DNA of 21,375 nucleotides from a virus. The notes under the pieces are model-generated. The model made no database searches. It was not told the DNA's origin and saw only the letters and a program-made list of their open reading frames with translations. Positions within the stretch are counted from its first letter, which is position 1, and each line of letters starts with the position of its first letter. Where the stretch lies: positions 1 to 21,375 of the IMG/VR virus record IMGVR_UViG_3300032093_000987; one strand, given 5' to 3'. A program made the position numbers and the translations under genes. Below, one piece after another: positions 4,378 through 19,567 of this stretch.

Positions 4378-4690
4378 GGTGTTGAGAGAATCTCACCATC
4401 AGGTGCTCGTCACACTTGATGACGCGGCGGGCCAGTTGGGTGTTAGCGTAAAGACGCTCCGACGACTGGTCGACCGGCGCGCAGTGCCAGCTTATCGGTT
4501 TGGCAAGGCGATCCGAGTCAACCTCGCGGAGGTTCTCGAAGCAACTAAACAGGAGCCCAGCAAACCATGTCCATCTTCAAGCGAGGCAAGACCTTTTACA
4601 TCGACATCGCGCTCCCCGGCGGGCGGCGATTCAAGCAGTCTGCTCAGACTGCTGATCGCAAAGCAGCGCAGGAGCTGCACGACCAATTAA
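4370..4690 (+). CDS. Excisionase / AlpA-MerR-like HTH protein (106 aa)
   Basis: Residues 13-58 form a MerR/excisionase-type winged helix domain: VTLDDAAGQLGVSVKTLRRL is the HTH, and AVPAYRFGKAIRVNLAEVL is the wing and last helix. Such proteins bend attachment-site DNA to direct excision and often sit just before the integrase, as here. The last ~40 residues (after 66) are Ser/Arg-rich, have no family features, and are read out of frame over the first 124 bases of the integrase gene, so they are probably a passive tail. It may also regulate its own operon. The domain is clear; which start is used (ATG 4370 or GTG 4379) is not. Confidence 0.72.
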   Translation: MAEVLRESHHQVLVTLDDAAGQLGVSVKTLRRLVDRRAVPAYRFGKAIRVNLAEVLEATKQEPSKPCPSSSEARPFTSTSRSPAGGDSSSLLRLLIAKQRRSCTTN

Positions 4691-5559
4691 AGGCCCAGCT
4701 CTGGCGGCAGAATAAACTTGGCGAGAAGCAGCCGCGCTCGCTTACCGAGGCCGCCGAGAAGTGGCTCAAAGAAAACGCGAACGCGAGCGCGATCCGCGAC
4801 TACACGCACCACCTCGCGTTCTGGTGCTCACGCGCCGAGGGGATGTCGCTCACCGACATCAGCCGCGCCTGGGCGGCCGAGCAGATCGAGCAGCTCATCA
4901 CGCGCAAGGGCACCCCCGCGAGCAACGGCACGAAGAACAACTACGTCATCACCCTGCGCAGCGTGCTCTCGACCGCGTGCAAGGAGTGGGAGTGGATCGA
5001 GCAGGTGCCGGCCTTTCGCACCTACGGCGACAAGCGCGACGCGTCGAAGATGCTGATCGCCACCCCCGCCCAGGCGAAGGCGCTGCTTGAGGTGCTGCCG
5101 CCGGGCTTACGCGCGGCGGTGGGCTTTGCGTTCATGACCGGCCTTCGCAAGTCGAACGTGTTTGGGCTCACTTGGGATCGGGTGGATCTTGAGCGGGGCC
5201 TGTGCTGGGTGCAGCCGATCGACACCAAGGCGGGCAATCTGATTGTCTGCCCGGTGAACTCGGCCGCGAAGGCGTTGCTTGAGCAGCAGCCGCGCACCGA
5301 GGCGCGGGTGTTCCCGGTCGAGCCGCCGTGCCATCACCAGTGGCGCCGGTACACCAAGCGCGCGGGGCTCCCGGCCGGGTTCCGGTTCCATGACATCCGC
5401 CACACTTTCGCCAGTTGGGCGGCGATGGACGGGGTCGACCGGAAGACGTTGCAGGACATGGGCGGGTGGAAGACCCCGGCCATGATCGACAACTACGTCC
5501 ACCTACCGGTCGATCACTTGGTCAATGCGGCGGAGCGTTTGGCTACCCGCCTGCACTGA
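4567..5559 (+). CDS. int: Tyrosine recombinase integrase (330 aa)
   Basis: A full-length phage tyrosine integrase. The N-terminal ~55 residues form the arm-binding domain (KRGKTFYIDIALPGGRR), then a SAM-like core-binding domain (about 56-155), then the catalytic domain. Catalytic residues are visible: R194 (TGLRKSN), K221 (DTKAG), H275 and R278 (FHDIRHT), W301 in the H/W position (MGGWKT) and nucleophile Y310 (IDNYVHL). It should recombine the tRNA-fMet-derived attP core at 5638-5682 with the matching host tRNA gene. Its stop is four bases before the first arm-type repeat. Expression probably follows the upstream operon. GGAG lies 11 bases before ATG 4567, rather far, so it may depend on coupling with the overlapping excisionase gene. 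Confidence 0.93.
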   Translation: MSIFKRGKTFYIDIALPGGRRFKQSAQTADRKAAQELHDQLKAQLWRQNKLGEKQPRSLTEAAEKWLKENANASAIRDYTHHLAFWCSRAEGMSLTDISRAWAAEQIEQLITRKGTPASNGTKNNYVITLRSVLSTACKEWEWIEQVPAFRTYGDKRDASKMLIATPAQAKALLEVLPPGLRAAVGFAFMTGLRKSNVFGLTWDRVDLERGLCWVQPIDTKAGNLIVCPVNSAAKALLEQQPRTEARVFPVEPPCHHQWRRYTKRAGLPAGFRFHDIRHTFASWAAMDGVDRKTLQDMGGWKTPAMIDNYVHLPVDHLVNAAERLATRLH

Positions 5560-14038: not shown

Positions 14039-15592
14039 TCACAGCGCGCTGTAGTTGACGGTCAAGTACCCGCTGGCGTGACGCTTGACGAGTTCGGGGC
14101 GAACCGCCGCGACCTCCTGCGCAATCACGCCACGCTGGCGATACCCAGCCATGTCGAATTCGTAGATGCCGACGCCGAGCGCGTGCGTGCCGACGCGCTT
14201 AATGCGGCGCTTCAGCCGGCGATCGGAGAACATGAACGGGTTACTGATCGCGGCACTGCCCAGGCTGAAGAGCCCGCCCATCGCGTTGCCAAAGCCGGCC
14301 TGCTGGGCGTTGTACTGATCCATCGCGGCGTTGTAGCCCATCTGCGTCGCGCCCAAGATGTTCGGCGTCTCCGCGCGGCCCGACTGCGAGAAGTTCGGCA
14401 TCTGCGGCATACCGACCTGCTGGCCGGTCAACAGCGCATTCATTTCGTTGAGCGACATCCCGCGGCGCTGCATCTGCTCCGCGATCGCCTGCTGCCGCAG
14501 CTGGTTCTGCTGGTTGGCATACGACTGGTTCATGTTGAACTGCTGCTGCGCGGCTTGGTTGCCCGCCTGCATACGCGACAGGTCGAGCCCCTGCGCCTGA
14601 CCGAGCGCCTGGTTCTGGAACTGCGCCGCGGCAAGGTTCTGCCCAAAATTCTGCGCCGACGCGCGGTTGGCGAGATCCGCCTGCCCCATCATCTGCCCGT
14701 AGAGCTGCTGCTGCGCCTGGTTGCCAAACTGGCCCGCCTGCAGCCCTTGATTGAACGCCTGCCCCGAAGCCTGGTTGGCGAACTGGCCGCCGGAGAGGTC
14801 TTCGTTGAACGCCTGCTGCCGGGCGCCCATCTGCATCCCGTACAGCCGCTGCGCTTCCTGTCCAGCCATGCCGAGCGCGTTGTACCGCTCGCCCGCCTGG
14901 CGCTGATTGAGTTCGTCCATCGCGCGCTGGTAGCCGGCGGTGCCGACCTTGAACCCGCGGTTCGACAAGTCGGTCTCCATCGACTGCTGCTGCTGACGCT
15001 GCACGGGCGCCATCTGCGCCATGAGGTCGCTTGCGACCTGGTTGCGGAAATCGTTGTTCAGCGTCGGAAGGGCCGGGTTATCGCCGGTCGATAATCCGCG
15101 CTGGACAGACTGCTGCGCGACGCCCATCTGCGGGCCGCCGAAATTGAAGCCACCAACCGCGTTTTGCTGCGGGCCGGCGCTGGTCGTGATTCCGCGCGTG
15201 TAGTCCGTGATGCCGCTCTGCAGCTGGCCGGGGCCGGACGCCTGCGCCATCTGCGGCAGATTCTGCCAATCGAACGGCTTTGAGTATTCGCTGCCGACGC
15301 GGTCCATGAACCCAGACGCGAGATCGCTCCGGTCCTTCTGCAAGCCAATCTGCGCGTCAAGGGCACCCTGCAGCTCTGGCGCGAGCGTGGTGTTCTGCGT
15401 CCACTGCGTGACCTTTTGGCCAGTCGCAGGGTCGACAACGTCCTTGGTGTTCCAGCTCGTCGATCCGAACGGCGTGTTCTGCGTCGGACGGTTGGCGTAG
15501 TTCTGCATGTTGAGAGCTTCTTTTGAAAGCTCACCCTGCAGCTGCGCTGCTCCGACGTAGTCTGGCGCGGCCGGTGCTTTACCCTTACTCAT
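14039..15592 (-). CDS. Gln/Asn-rich repeat virion protein with C-terminal S74 chaperone domain (517 aa)
   Basis: Three parts are visible. Residues 1-255 are mixed, with an MSKGKAPAAPDYVGAA opening common to phage virion proteins. Residues 260-367 consist of six exact 18-residue repeats rich in Gln, Asn and Ala. Residues ~455-517 form a peptidase S74 (intramolecular chaperone) domain: FSDRRLK at 455-461, GVIAQEVAAVRPELV and GYLTVNYSAL at the end. S74 domains trimerise fibre proteins and cut themselves off before the Ser of the SD-x-RLK motif, here S456. This protein does not otherwise look like a beta-helical fibre. ATG 15592 has GGAGA 7 bases upstream and overlaps the stop of the GNAT gene (ATGA). 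Confidence 0.75.
   Translation of the reverse strand: MSKGKAPAAPDYVGAAQLQGELSKEALNMQNYANRPTQNTPFGSTSWNTKDVVDPATGQKVTQWTQNTTLAPELQGALDAQIGLQKDRSDLASGFMDRVGSEYSKPFDWQNLPQMAQASGPGQLQSGITDYTRGITTSAGPQQNAVGGFNFGGPQMGVAQQSVQRGLSTGDNPALPTLNNDFRNQVASDLMAQMAPVQRQQQQSMETDLSNRGFKVGTAGYQRAMDELNQRQAGERYNALGMAGQEAQRLYGMQMGARQQAFNEDLSGGQFANQASGQAFNQGLQAGQFGNQAQQQLYGQMMGQADLANRASAQNFGQNLAAAQFQNQALGQAQGLDLSRMQAGNQAAQQQFNMNQSYANQQNQLRQQAIAEQMQRRGMSLNEMNALLTGQQVGMPQMPNFSQSGRAETPNILGATQMGYNAAMDQYNAQQAGFGNAMGGLFSLGSAAISNPFMFSDRRLKRRIKRVGTHALGVGIYEFDMAGYRQRGVIAQEVAAVRPELVKRHASGYLTVNYSAL
14492..14815 (-). repeat. Six tandem 18-residue repeats in the S74-domain protein
   Basis: Six consecutive units of exactly 18 residues run from residue 260 to 367. 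The clearest are QAFNQGLQAGQFGNQAQQ and QNFGQNLAAAQFQNQALG. An Asn recurs at the same place in every unit (273, 291, 309, 327, 345, 363), usually followed by Gln or Arg. Eighteen residues are five turns of an alpha helix, so the Asn would form one stripe along a long helix. Confidence 0.8.
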
Positions 15593-15999
15593 TGCAACGT
15601 CTCCTTCAGAAACCGGCAGTCCTCGCGCCGCAGCTCGAGCAGCACGCAATCGACCGTCTCCGCGATCTGCTTAAAGCCGATTTTTTTGTTGAACCGAATT
15701 GCCCTGTCGAAATCCTTTGGCGTCAAACCGTAGACCGCCTTCACGCCAATAGACTCAAACGGATACGCAAATGCAGCCTTTAACAGCCCGCGCGTCAGCG
15801 AGTGCCCAGTGTCGAACGCGACGTGCATGAAGCAGCTCTCCGGCGTCCACGAGCCGAACGCAACCGCGGCGGCGATCGTGCCGTCGTCGCGGATCGCAGC
15901 GATCGTGCGCAGATCGGTCGACCACGGGATCTGCGTCTGGCGCGTCATCCACTGCCAGATCACCTGCGGCTCATTGGGCTGGTCGGTCGCGAGCTTCAT
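15589..15999 (-). CDS. GNAT-family N-acetyltransferase-like protein (136 aa)
   Basis: The fold order matches GNAT: an N-terminal strand and helix, TIAAAVAFGSW (strand), SCFMHVAFDTG (strand), an acetyl-CoA-binding-type helix after HSLTRGLLKAAFAYPFESI, KAVYGLTPKDFDRAIRFNKK, then IGFKQIAETVDCVLLELRR. The typical FNKKIGFK signature of GNAT proteins is clear. Such genes recur among podovirus structural genes, with unknown targets. The acetyl-CoA pyrophosphate loop (R/Q-x-x-G-x-G/A) is degenerate here (SLTRGLLK). ATG 15999 overlaps the upstream stop by four bases, and the gene is followed by the S74-domain gene with another 4-base overlap. Confidence 0.72.
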   Translation of the reverse strand: MKLATDQPNEPQVIWQWMTRQTQIPWSTDLRTIAAIRDDGTIAAAVAFGSWTPESCFMHVAFDTGHSLTRGLLKAAFAYPFESIGVKAVYGLTPKDFDRAIRFNKKIGFKQIAETVDCVLLELRREDCRFLKETLQ

Positions 16000-17234
16000 T
16001 CGCCAAACAGCTCCTCAATTGTGATTTCACCCTTTGGATCGTTTGCGGTGCCAAGCATGTCGCCCATCGCTGCCAGCAGCGCCATCTCTCGAGCAAGGCT
16101 AGTCACAAACGGCATGGAGCCGCCGCGGCCGTCAGGCGCGGGCTCCGTTTCCGCCGGCAGCTCTTCCACCGTCACAGACGTTTCGGGCTCGGGCTCTGCC
16201 TCCGGCTCCGTCGCAGCGGCCTGGGTCAGCGCGTTGATGTAGTCGATCACTTCCTCAAGTGTGGGCTCCGCTTGCGGCGCGGGCTCTTCCTGCGGCAGCT
16301 CTTCAACTGTCACCGACGCTTCGGGCTCCGGCTCGCTCTTAGGCTCCACAACCGGCGCAGCTACGGGCGGCGCAACCACGGGCGGCGGCGGAGGGGGCGG
16401 CGGGGGCGGGAGCTCCTCGACCGTTACCGACACCTCCGGCTCTTCCGGCTTTTGCGGGACTAGTTCTTCCAGAGCCTGCCGCACAGTCAAGTCCTGCGGA
16501 ATTTCCTCAACCGTGACAGTCGCCTTGGGTTCTGGCTTCTCCTCTTCTGGGATTAGCTCTTCCAGCACCTCGCGCGCCGTAGGCGCAGCCGCCGGCTGCT
16601 CTGCCAGTTCTTCCACCGTCACGACGCCAGTCTTTTCTTCCTTCTCAAGCTCTGGCTGCGTACCCGCAGTCGTCGTCTCCGAAGGCGACAATTCTTCAAC
16701 TGTAACTACGCCTGTCTTTTCTTCCTTTTCGAGTTCGGGCTGCATTCCTGCCAGCGGCGCCTCTTCCGGCGGAAGCTCTTCAACAGTAATGACGCCTTTC
16801 TTTTCAAGATCGGCGAGCTCGCCCTCGTCCGCAGGCGGCAGCTCTTCGACGGTAATGACGCCCGTCTTTTCTTGCTCTCGCAGCTCAATAGGCTCGCCCT
16901 TCGGGGCAGGCGCAGGCTGTGCTTCCGTTACAGTCTCGGGTTCCGCCTTTTTCTCTGGAATCGTCTCGCCAATCGTGTTCGGGTTCGGCGGGCCAGCAGG
17001 AACGGCAGAACTTCCGCCGCCCTTTGCCGCGGGCGGGATATAGGGAATGTCGGCGTACTCCAAAACTTCTGGATTCGCGAGGTACGCCCGAGCAGCGCGC
17101 TGACGCAGCGCAACGTCGGTGTTCCTCATCCACGGAAAGTCGAGGAACATGACGTCGCCGCCCATCGTCGCGCCTGGCACGCCAGAGCCGCGCAGGGCCT
17201 CGATGAGCGAACTCTTGTACGGCGCTTCGCTCAC
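15996..17234 (-). CDS. Disordered acidic/proline-rich protein with nine V-E-E-L motifs (412 aa)
   Basis: I know no named family for this. Residues 1-68 are folded-looking (SSLIEALRGSGVPGATMG, DFPWMRNTDVALRQRAARAY). Residues ~70-370 are low-complexity Pro/Glu/Ala/Lys sequence carrying a conserved short motif, consensus V-[IVT]-T-V-E-E-L, repeated eight times, then a ninth variant ITIEELF near the C-terminus (404-410). Two LEEL-[IV]-P variants (224-229, 255-260) and a run of ten prolines (276-285) also occur. A short helix (SLAREMALLAAMGDML) precedes the last motif. It is probably a flexible multivalent binder of another virion protein. The start is GTG 17234 with GGAGG 7 bases upstream; an in-register ATG there is followed at once by a stop. 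Confidence 0.7.
   Translation of the reverse strand: MSEAPYKSSLIEALRGSGVPGATMGGDVMFLDFPWMRNTDVALRQRAARAYLANPEVLEYADIPYIPPAAKGGGSSAVPAGPPNPNTIGETIPEKKAEPETVTEAQPAPAPKGEPIELREQEKTGVITVEELPPADEGELADLEKKGVITVEELPPEEAPLAGMQPELEKEEKTGVVTVEELSPSETTTAGTQPELEKEEKTGVVTVEELAEQPAAAPTAREVLEELIPEEEKPEPKATVTVEEIPQDLTVRQALEELVPQKPEEPEVSVTVEELPPPPPPPPPPVVAPPVAAPVVEPKSEPEPEASVTVEELPQEEPAPQAEPTLEEVIDYINALTQAAATEPEAEPEPETSVTVEELPAETEPAPDGRGGSMPFVTSLAREMALLAAMGDMLGTANDPKGEITIEELFGE
16008..16856 (-). repeat. Nine copies of a V/I-T-V/I-E-E-L short linear motif
   Basis: Motif cores begin at residues 127, 149, 177, 205, 240, 270, 308, 354 and 404 of the 412-residue protein, spaced 22, 28, 28, 35, 30, 38, 46 and 50 residues apart. 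The 18-residue unit QPELEKEEKTGVVTVEEL occurs twice exactly (165-182 and 193-210), yet its two DNA copies (16689-16742 and 16605-16658) differ at about ten bases without changing the protein, so the peptide rather than the DNA is conserved. Confidence 0.85.
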
Positions 17235-18817
17235 ATCACACCTCCCGGCTCACTCATCATGTGCGACGACGTGAAGATCGTCGCAGGCAGTCCGCGCACC
17301 TTCATGCGCAGGCTCGCGTAGTAACCGAGCCCCGTCGTGCCGGCCCAGCTCTGGTAAGTGTTGGCGGAGCCCGCCCACACCGCGACGTTCCACAAGCCGC
17401 TGTTCCAGATGCCGCCCGGCGTCTGAACGAACGACGGCGAGCCGCCGACGTTGACGAAGGTGTACTGCGTGTTGATCTGCAGCTTTACCGAAGGCGGCCC
17501 CGGCGCGATAAAGATCGGCCGCGCCATCGTGAACTTTTTCAGCACCGCGGGCGTGTTGAAAGAGTTGAACGCGGTCTGCACGTCGCCCTCGAGCGTGGCG
17601 CCAGGCGTGCCATTCGTCTCGGTGCCGTCGGTGTTCCCGAGAAACCCCTTTGCAATGCGGCCGTCTTCCGTACCGAAGTACAGCTGCCCGTCGAGCAGCG
17701 CAGCGCACGTCATGGGCATACCGGAGAAGTCGCACCAAGCGCCGGTGTTTACGTTCATCGCGAACTGCTGGTAGGTGCCTGTCACCTGCTCCGGCAGCTT
17801 GATGATGAGGATGTCCTCGCTCGGCAGCAAAAACACGTCCCAGCTGATCGAGTTGATGTACGAGCGCACGAGCGGGATCAGCACCGACTGAATCTTTTGC
17901 GCCGGGCCGGGCGAGACATCGCTGAACTGGCCGTTCACAAGGCGCGAGACGGGCACGAGCCCGAGCTCGGAGAGCATCATCACTTCGCCGCCATAGCCGG
18001 TGAAGAAGCGCCCGAACTTGGGCACCTTGCCGACGTACCAGACGCCGCGCAGCGCAAACTTCGACGGGTCAGACGGGTCGGTGCCCGTCCAGACTCCAAT
18101 GTCGCCCTGCGAGCCGACGACGACGAGGTGGTCGTCGATACCGACGCCGGCGTCGAGAGTCCAGTTGACAAGCCCGCGGATGTATCCGCCGTTGCGGAGT
18201 AGCGAGCCCATCTCAAAGCCCGACGCGGTGCCTGCAATTGCATCAACCGTGTCGAGGTAGTAAACGGTCGAGCTGTCCGACACCGTGAACCAGACGCGGT
18301 TCTTGAATACCGCGACCGTTTCGGGGCTGCCCGGCAAACCCGTTACCGTTTGCTGCGTCCAGGTCGTGCCGTCGTAAGTCCAATACCCGGCGCCGGGCGA
18401 GACCGCGAGCAGATACATGCCGGCGCCGTTCGCAAACTGCGTGACGCTCCAAACATCGTTCGTTGAGCCCGTCGCGCTCACGGCCACCGAAGGCGTGCCG
18501 CTCGTGACGTCGTAAATGTTTCCGCCCGCCGCGGCGAACAACTTGTTGTCGCCGATCACGGCGCCGTTGTAGGCAAAGATGGAATCGACCGAGCTGCCGA
18601 CCGAGCTTGTGTGATACGTCCAGCCCTTGCGCATCTCGACGCCAGTCTGGCGCGGGATCAAGTTCGTCAGCACGAGCGCGTCCGTCGGCCTCATGTCGCT
18701 GATCGGGTCGCGATAGTTGAGCCCGCCCACCGGCGCAGGGATGTTGAACACCTGCAGCGTCTGCGCCGCTGCGGAGCGGCGCGGAGCTTTGAATGGTGCG
18801 AGCGGGACGAGCGGCAT
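17231..18817 (-). CDS. Beta-propeller-like tail nozzle/hub protein (528 aa)
   Basis: A beta-rich protein with repeated WxV/YxxDG-type blades (VWSVTQFANGAGMYLLAV, GYWTYDGTTWTQQTV, RVWFTVSDSSTVYYLDTVD, LVVVGSQGDIGVWTG, QLYFGTEDGRIAKG), as in the propeller tail proteins of T7 (gp12) and P22 (gp10). Its N-terminus, PAPVGGLNYRDPISDMRPTD, is a motif widely shared by this podovirus group. It would form the lower tail tube or plug holding DNA after packaging. It follows the adaptor gene with the stop and start adjoining (TAAATG), the usual adaptor-nozzle order, and its stop overlaps the GTG start of the TVEEL-motif gene. Confidence 0.72.
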   Translation of the reverse strand: MPLVPLAPFKAPRRSAAAQTLQVFNIPAPVGGLNYRDPISDMRPTDALVLTNLIPRQTGVEMRKGWTYHTSSVGSSVDSIFAYNGAVIGDNKLFAAAGGNIYDVTSGTPSVAVSATGSTNDVWSVTQFANGAGMYLLAVSPGAGYWTYDGTTWTQQTVTGLPGSPETVAVFKNRVWFTVSDSSTVYYLDTVDAIAGTASGFEMGSLLRNGGYIRGLVNWTLDAGVGIDDHLVVVGSQGDIGVWTGTDPSDPSKFALRGVWYVGKVPKFGRFFTGYGGEVMMLSELGLVPVSRLVNGQFSDVSPGPAQKIQSVLIPLVRSYINSISWDVFLLPSEDILIIKLPEQVTGTYQQFAMNVNTGAWCDFSGMPMTCAALLDGQLYFGTEDGRIAKGFLGNTDGTETNGTPGATLEGDVQTAFNSFNTPAVLKKFTMARPIFIAPGPPSVKLQINTQYTFVNVGGSPSFVQTPGGIWNSGLWNVAVWAGSANTYQSWAGTTGLGYYASLRMKVRGLPATIFTSSHMMSEPGGVM

Positions 18818-19567
18818 TTAGACCCCGAATCCCGTGTCGGGCGTGTTAGACAGCGGCTGGATGTACGGGTACTTGAAGCTGCGCGCCATCGTCAGCACGG
18901 GCGAGCCGCGCTCGTTGCCCTTGCGGTTCTCAAAGTTGACTTGGAAGTCGCGCATCGCGGCCGACGAATCAAAGCCCTTCATCTCAAGCCACTTCACCCG
19001 CGCGAGCAGCGTGACGAGGTAGGAGTCGAGCAGAATCGTGTCGCCGTTTTTGATCGCGCGGTTTTTGTATAGCGATGAGTTGTCCTGATCGCGCACCCAC
19101 GCAACCGACTGGTAAAAGAAACTCAGTGTTTGGGCCGGTGTGGGTGGCGACAGGATGTAAATCATGTTGTCCCGCACCTGCCAGTAGAACGACAGGGTCG
19201 GGAGCGTTTGACGGATCAGCAGCTGCTGCCAGAACTGCGGCGAGATCGGCCCAACGGCAGGCCACTGCATCGACGAGTTCCACTGCGTCTGATCGACGAA
19301 CTCGTAGAAGTCTTCGGGCAATGCAAAGCCCTGCTCGCTGATGCCGGGGCTGCTCGCGAGGATGCTGATGGTGTGGGTCTTGGTCAGCTCCTGCCAATCG
19401 TTGAGCGAGATCAGATCTAGCCCAGCGAGGTTGACAGCCTGCACCATCTGGACGACAGCGGGGTCAGTGTCCCCCGCCGGGTCCGCCGGAGTCGGAAAGC
19501 TCACCAGCTGCGCAACGTTCTGAACGATCGCGGACAGCGTCGAGTCGTTGACAATCTGGAAAGCCAT
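18818..19567 (-). CDS. Tail adaptor protein, T7 gp11 / P22 gp4 / SU10-adaptor-like (249 aa)
   Basis: Helix-rich N-terminal part (IVQNVAQLVSFPTP, VVQMVQAVNLAGLDLISL) followed by the beta-sandwich typical of podovirus adaptors: FALPEDFYEFVDQTQW, SFYWQVRDNMIYILSPP, LSFFYQSVAWV. A final helical part (LLDSYLVTLLARVKWLEM) leads to an extended tail. The pattern of LPxDFY, then an IYxxSPPP turn, then FxYxxxxWV is characteristic. It would form the ring beneath the portal that joins head and tail. It lies directly before the nozzle gene, as in T7. Confidence 0.74.
   Translation of the reverse strand: MAFQIVNDSTLSAIVQNVAQLVSFPTPADPAGDTDPAVVQMVQAVNLAGLDLISLNDWQELTKTHTISILASSPGISEQGFALPEDFYEFVDQTQWNSSMQWPAVGPISPQFWQQLLIRQTLPTLSFYWQVRDNMIYILSPPTPAQTLSFFYQSVAWVRDQDNSSLYKNRAIKNGDTILLDSYLVTLLARVKWLEMKGFDSSAAMRDFQVNFENRKGNERGSPVLTMARSFKYPYIQPLSNTPDTGFGV

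Follow-up and report, generated by a model that had tools for sequence, protein, structure and literature searches.

A predicted disordered protein with nine VTVEEL-type peptides is encoded directly behind the tail nozzle gene of an uncultured virus

INTRODUCTION

Which role fits a 412-residue viral protein in which one short peptide recurs nine times and whose gene lies directly behind that of the tail nozzle? The question is raised by positions 1 to 21,375 of IMG/VR virus record IMGVR_UViG_3300032093_000987; this whole stretch of 21,375 nucleotides is referred to here as the window, and the gene and its product as the leash gene and the leash protein. No family in PHROG, Pfam, or NCBIfam covers the 412-residue chain, and literature searches for the motif returned only unrelated matches; none of the papers searched describes a VTVEEL motif or an example of such a tether in a bacteriophage virion.

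RESULTS AND DISCUSSION

Gene context

The window carries the gene order nozzle, leash, GNAT acetyltransferase, S74/IVPA-like protein (Table 1). The start of the leash gene overlaps the stop of the upstream nozzle gene by 4 nt (offset -4); the two genes are probably translationally coupled, and the leash reading frame is conserved in 8 relatives. An AlphaFold2 (AF2) model of the nozzle (mean pLDDT 77) matched Pa223, VP1, Pan3, P22 gp10, Sf6 gp8, and T7 tails in Foldseek. The GNAT proteins of relatives are either ~85% or 30 to 40% identical to that of the window, and because these classes are distributed independently of nozzle relatedness, the GNAT gene has probably been exchanged by recombination. 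Besides the leash gene, the virion operon contains another fast-evolving member, the gene of the S74 protein, which varies greatly in length and identity between phages whose neighboring genes are 97% identical. An integrase-like ORF at 4567-5559 points to a probably temperate lifestyle.

Table 1. Features of the leash gene, its product, and its neighbors (window coordinates)
Feature	Position	Strand	Basis
Virion structural protein, C-terminal S74 chaperone domain; syntenic place of P22 gp14/IVPA	14039..15649	-	phrog_6121, PF13884, synteny
GNAT acetyltransferase, downstream of leash gene	15589..15999	-	phrog_4470
Leash gene, 412 aa, GTG start overlapping nozzle stop	15996..17234	-	ORF
Tail nozzle gene, upstream (P22 gp10/T7 gp12 type beta-propeller)	17231..18817	-	AF2 + Foldseek, phrog_5107
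Tail adaptor (tube A; named by synteny)	18818..19567	-	phrog_6013 tail protein
Conserved N-terminal module, aa 1-66 (SSLIEALR helix ... FPWM ... NPEVLEY)	17037..17234	-	Family HMM; AF2 helix 9-16
Motif copy 1, ITVEEL, aa 127	16839..16856	-	
Motif copy 2, ITVEEL, aa 149	16773..16790	-	
Motif copy 3, VTVEEL, aa 177, inside first 18-aa repeat	16689..16706	-	
Motif copy 4, VTVEEL, aa 205, inside second 18-aa repeat	16605..16622	-	
Second motif type, TAREVLEELIP, aa 219-229	16548..16580	-	Alignments A1, A9
Motif copy 5, VTVEEI, aa 240	16500..16517	-	
Second motif type, TVRQALEELVP, aa 250-260	16455..16487	-	Alignment; AF2 helix 251-257
Motif copy 6, VTVEEL, aa 270	16410..16427	-	
Motif copy 7, VTVEEL, aa 308	16296..16313	-	
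TLEEVIDYINALTQ helix, aa 325-338	16221..16262	-	AF2 helix 326-341, block pLDDT ~86; nearly invariant in relatives
Motif copy 8, VTVEEL, aa 354	16158..16175	-	
C-terminal helix, aa 375-395, spacer before terminal motif	16050..16112	-	AF2, block pLDDT ~82; conserved in L080
Motif copy 9, ITIEEL, aa 404, three residues short of C-terminus; predicted helix 406-411	16008..16025	-	

Motif array and predicted structure

Nine matches to [VI]T[VI]EE[LI] are spread along the leash protein, against a mean of 0.002 and a maximum of 1 in 20,000 residue shuffles. They follow one another at 22 to 50 residues from start to start, leaving 16 to 44 residues in between. An exact 18-residue repeat, QPELEKEEKTGVVTVEEL, begins at residues 165 and 193, and 10 silent changes are the only differences between its two 54-nt DNA copies. 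The original prediction had described this array correctly, from the nine motifs in 412 residues and their spacing to the last copy near the C-terminus and the about ten silent differences within the 18-residue repeat. Its view that the remainder consists only of Pro/Glu/Ala linker has to be given up, since the chain also holds an N-terminal module, a second motif type, and a C-terminal helix. The consensus of that second recurring motif is [ST]xR[EQ]xLxxL[IV], a related helix occupies residues 325 to 338, and a relative with a 65% identical nozzle (L080) has the counterparts SVRETLAQLI and STLRETLSALV.

The protein is acidic (pI 4.06, net charge -61), and the chain that follows the N-terminal module is predicted to be disordered. 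The AF2 monomer model, built on a 44-sequence family alignment, has a mean pLDDT of 55 and a pTM of 0.22 and contains only short helices (residues 9-16, 251-257, 326-341, 375-395, and 406-411). It shows neither strands nor a long coiled coil, the longest helix having 21 residues, and the internal VTVEEL copies are modeled without structure.

A conserved N-terminal module in one uncultured clade

Searches of IMG/VR with the nozzle yielded 96 distinct nozzle/downstream pairs. A profile HMM built for the N-terminal module from clade members matched the next ORF at 80 of 81 distinct loci whose nozzle identity is at least 55%, these 80 including the training sequences, and at none of the 13 loci whose nozzle identity is 36% or less. 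Because the positive loci include the training set, an independent check is provided by two loci outside it, at 53% nozzle identity, which the HMM also matches (E 3e-6). The module thus tracks the clade of its nozzle.

The single exception (L052) has the nozzle followed directly by GNAT. It is nested within the clade on the nozzle tree, and a protein search of its 35.7-kb record with one relative as the query found no leash copy, so this phage has probably lost the gene, which would then be dispensable at least there. In eight relatives (L112, L158, L127, L116, L121, L179, L124, and L093) the module is internal, behind an extra domain, and two of these (L112 and L127) have similar helical-looking segments on both sides of it.

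The module spans ~45 to 65 residues across the family, whose members have 149 to 456 residues (median, 320) and almost nothing in common beyond it; their bodies are Pro rich, Gly rich, Asp repetitive, or built from helical repeats. Long Asp-rich repeat bodies (VGDVGD, TDDVTDT, and VDPVVDP), of a chemistry far from VTVEEL, occupy the equivalent genomic position in L115, L092, and L111. Two other relatives repeat their own, differing C-terminal peptides within the body, namely, LPSWFDEE/LPSWWNEQ in L139 and TGDIVFVP in L156. We considered whether a C-terminal peptide copied inside the body might be a family-wide rule and rejected it, as only 16 of 55 proteins reached p<0.05 and several of these were near-duplicates; the pattern holds for the motif-bearing lineages and a few others such as these two. 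In another member (L128:4742-5758), the C-terminus (the GEFVLNKEAAKAIG region) weakly matches several tape-measure PHROGs (E 9e-5), which hints that the family may be virion associated.

A tblastn search with the leash protein gave no match in cultured phages, whose best nozzles are only ~32% identical and whose inspected members lack the gene, and a genome scan with the nozzle alignment, aimed at host assignment, likewise returned no match. A scan with the capsid protein recovered seven relatives at 48 to 75% identity, and all four that include the nozzle end (bacterial loci in Nitrosovibrio, Pandoraea, and two metagenome bins) have GNAT directly after it. Compared with the annotated relatives inspected, in which a GNAT or GNAT-like gene comes after the nozzle, the leash gene is an extra gene restricted to a single uncultured clade.

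Exchange of the body and change in copy number

The leash body is exchanged as a cassette between phages with otherwise nearly identical virion genes. This is clearest in the pair IMGVR_UViG_3300044615_000736 (G001) and IMGVR_UViG_3300044631_001340 (G002). The leash protein of G001 carries seven motifs, whereas that of G002 has 192 residues and none, and the two bodies lack similarity, although the nozzles are 97%, the adaptors 98%, and the large downstream proteins 97% identical. Among the virion proteins of this pair, strong divergence is limited to the leash, the tail fibre (73%), and the S74 protein (601 versus 769 residues, 59% identical). Between the window and L006, silent divergence (pS) is 0.08 in the anchor versus 0.46 in the linkers, which fits a body imported by recombination.

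Copy number changes on a finer scale. Eight motifs are found in L005, L006, and L007, whose compared structural proteins are 97 to 100% identical to those of the window, except for one small protein at 96% in L006. In L005 and L007, one unit is a chimera of the two 18-residue units, its 5' half resembling copy 1 and its 3' half copy 2. This fusion of two units accounts for their eight copies and reveals that the 18-residue units also recombine.

These observations bear on the idea, put forward in the original prediction, that the motifs, some nine in number, dock on a ring of the phage (portal, nozzle, or capsid) whose symmetry sets their count. Members of the family of the neighboring nozzle form rings in solved phage tail structures, and the motif is indeed repeated and selected (see below). 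Nevertheless, we regard this as very improbable: the count is 9, 8, 6, 7, or 4, with 8 and 9 occurring in nearly identical virions and the 8-copy form arising by repeat recombination, which argues against a set of nine motifs for a ring. The absence of the whole motif-bearing body beside the nearly unchanged nozzle and adaptor of G002 is a further argument that the motif does not require a conserved virion ring as its partner.

Another candidate partner is a different late phage protein, e.g., the S74/IVPA-like protein or ejection proteins, in which case the leash would act as an assembly or loading chaperone and perhaps not be retained in the virion. Within the structural operon, the leash gene does have the nozzle on one side and the GNAT-S74 pair on the other, the S74 protein also evolves fast, and the window and L080 share more identity in GNAT (85%) and S74 (69%) than in the nozzle (65%), which would suit coinheritance of the block. 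However, the S74 protein of motif-positive G001 is closer to those of motif-negative G006 (63%) and G002 than to those of motif-positive G003 (56%) and G004 (51%), and the GNAT class fails to separate motif-positive from motif-negative phages. We consider this possibility unlikely, albeit worth keeping in mind. A partner search by gene content, comparing G001, G003, and G004 with G002 and G006, identified no gene that tracks the motif. The strict motif is absent from every other gene product of G001, G003, and G004; a relaxed pattern retrieved only two further matches, LSVEEV from a short ORF without a name and LTVEQL from a protein that motif-negative G002 has as well.

Recurrence of the motif and selection on it

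Three lineages that lie apart on the nozzle tree carry the motif, and the well-supported branching of this tree requires its state to have changed three times; the linkers of these lineages are unrelated or strongly diverged. Bodies in the three lineages have four to nine copies, including one that ends the chain or lies close to its C-terminal end. Within the window's own lineage, L009 carries six. L091 (nozzle 61%) has seven, the last forming its C-terminal residues, and resembles the window protein in little except the motif and the acidic EP[ED] stretch before it (E 0.003). L080 is a clear homolog of the C-terminal half of the window protein (E 2e-19), with four copies, two of them degenerate (ITYQEV and ISVEQV); some L091 copies are also looser. 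Scanning with the C-terminal half disclosed no further motif lineage.

Purifying selection in the window's lineage acts more strongly on the motif than on the linkers. By simple counting on few sequences, pN/pS was 0.014/0.34 in motifs versus 0.138/0.46 in linkers between the window and L006 (Fisher p 0.02) and 0.071/0.69 versus 0.145/0.52 between the window and L009 (Fisher p 0.03). Similarly, the four 33-residue motif units of L091 differ at 13 to 19 of 99 nt, yet at only 1 to 3 residues. The original prediction had argued from the silent differences that the peptide is held by selection rather than by recent duplication. The lower pN/pS of the motif sustains the first half of that argument; the silent differences alone do not demonstrate that the units have long stayed in place, since the repeat units also recombine, as the L005/L007 chimera illustrates. 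Its broader claim of a selected, multivalent motif gains from the pN/pS contrast and from the recurrence in two distant lineages with unrelated or diverged linkers. Motifs lost from retained linkers, the pattern it had named as refuting, were not seen in the relatives, in which the body goes or stays as a whole.

These data also bear on whether the body is simply a low-complexity spacer that needs only length, charge, and disorder, with repeats as by-products of slippage or unequal recombination. The highly variable Gly-, Asp-, and Pro-rich repeat bodies of relatives and the unit lost through repeat recombination would agree with such a spacer. Recurrence of the motif in three lineages despite differing linkers, fewer replacements in motif than in linker codons, and the amino acid-level conservation of the L091 units despite silent divergence do not, and we judge it distinctly improbable.

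A proposed role for the leash protein

We tentatively favor the explanation that the leash protein is a nozzle-coupled tail accessory of Mx8-like short-tailed phages, with an exchangeable disordered body on which VTVEEL serves as a multivalent docking peptide. From synteny and co-occurrence, the N-terminal module would dock on the nozzle or at another site of the tail, and the body anchored in this way might hang outward like a leash. Each motif may be a weak docking peptide that folds when bound. Its residue pattern (hydrophobic, T/S, hydrophobic, E, E, hydrophobic) would suit an N-cap and capping box of a helix, and each copy could contribute one turn. The repeats would then provide avidity toward a partner that differs between phage lineages. 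Counted against this explanation are the two degenerate copies of L080 and the absence of the gene from L052.

Given the fibre-like pattern of exchange, the partner more likely faces the host or evolves fast than forms a fixed ring of the virion. A bolder version, which we hold to be doubtful, is that an exchangeable leash displayed on the nozzle binds host-side targets through its repeated peptides, mediating adhesion or triggering without a folded receptor-binding domain and swapping its motif type as other phages swap a fibre tip. A resemblance to the TonB box was considered and dropped because the conserved residues are not placed as such a box would require.

If confirmed, the tail accessory proposed here would give the nozzle of short-tailed phages, so far described through folded parts, a component that is fully disordered and repeats a peptide, and a phage could swap docking peptides on a leash as others swap fibre tips. 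The G001/G002 pair and the 8- versus 9-copy alleles offer natural comparisons for the function of the repeats.

Comparison with known systems

The surrounding gene order matches the Mx8/PhiGT1-type module (tubeA-tubeB-GNAT-IVPA), and the window nozzle is 26 to 32% identical to those of Mx8, Mx9, BUCT555, pCB2047-A, and PhiGT1. Unlike the window, Mx9, BUCT555, pCB2047-A, and MW202489 (nozzles 28 to 32%) have an annotated acetyltransferase after the nozzle, with GNAT adjoining the nozzle directly in the first three; in EBPR podovirus 2, an unnamed protein of 152 residues comes after the nozzle.

Tail needles combine a conserved hub-binding end with a variable remainder, as the leash protein does. 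The leash gene also shares with P22 gene 26 a place between the nozzle and the gp14/IVPA position (P22 10-26-14, within the order 4-10-26-14), and in SU10 the needle gp18 adjoins the nozzle gp17, with adjacent gene numbers (PMC9509320). The leash might thus be a functional stand-in for the needle, filling the gene 26 slot and plugging the nozzle with its N-terminus. Needles, however, are trimeric coiled coils with folded tips, whereas the leash is predicted to be disordered and its model has no long coiled coil; moreover, the slot is empty in Mx9, BUCT555, and pCB2047-A, which have the same nozzle type. No sequence relation to gp26 was found by hhalign (0.1% probability), a comparison of little weight given that the positive control, nozzle versus gp10, reached only 0.3%. 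Overall, such a stand-in seems improbable.

In podovirus tail fibres, the hub-binding N-terminal module is kept and the distal part is exchanged wholesale between similar phages (PMC10386132), much like the leash body. The leash differs from fibres in its predicted lack of β-structure and of a folded receptor-binding domain and in having no Pfam or fibre PHROG match; its distal part is predicted to be disordered and is peptide repetitive. In this last respect, it resembles multivalent short-linear-motif tethers, in which a short peptide is repeated on disordered linkers with one copy near the C-terminus, and, as in such arrays, the motif is conserved while the surrounding sequence, predicted to be disordered, varies.
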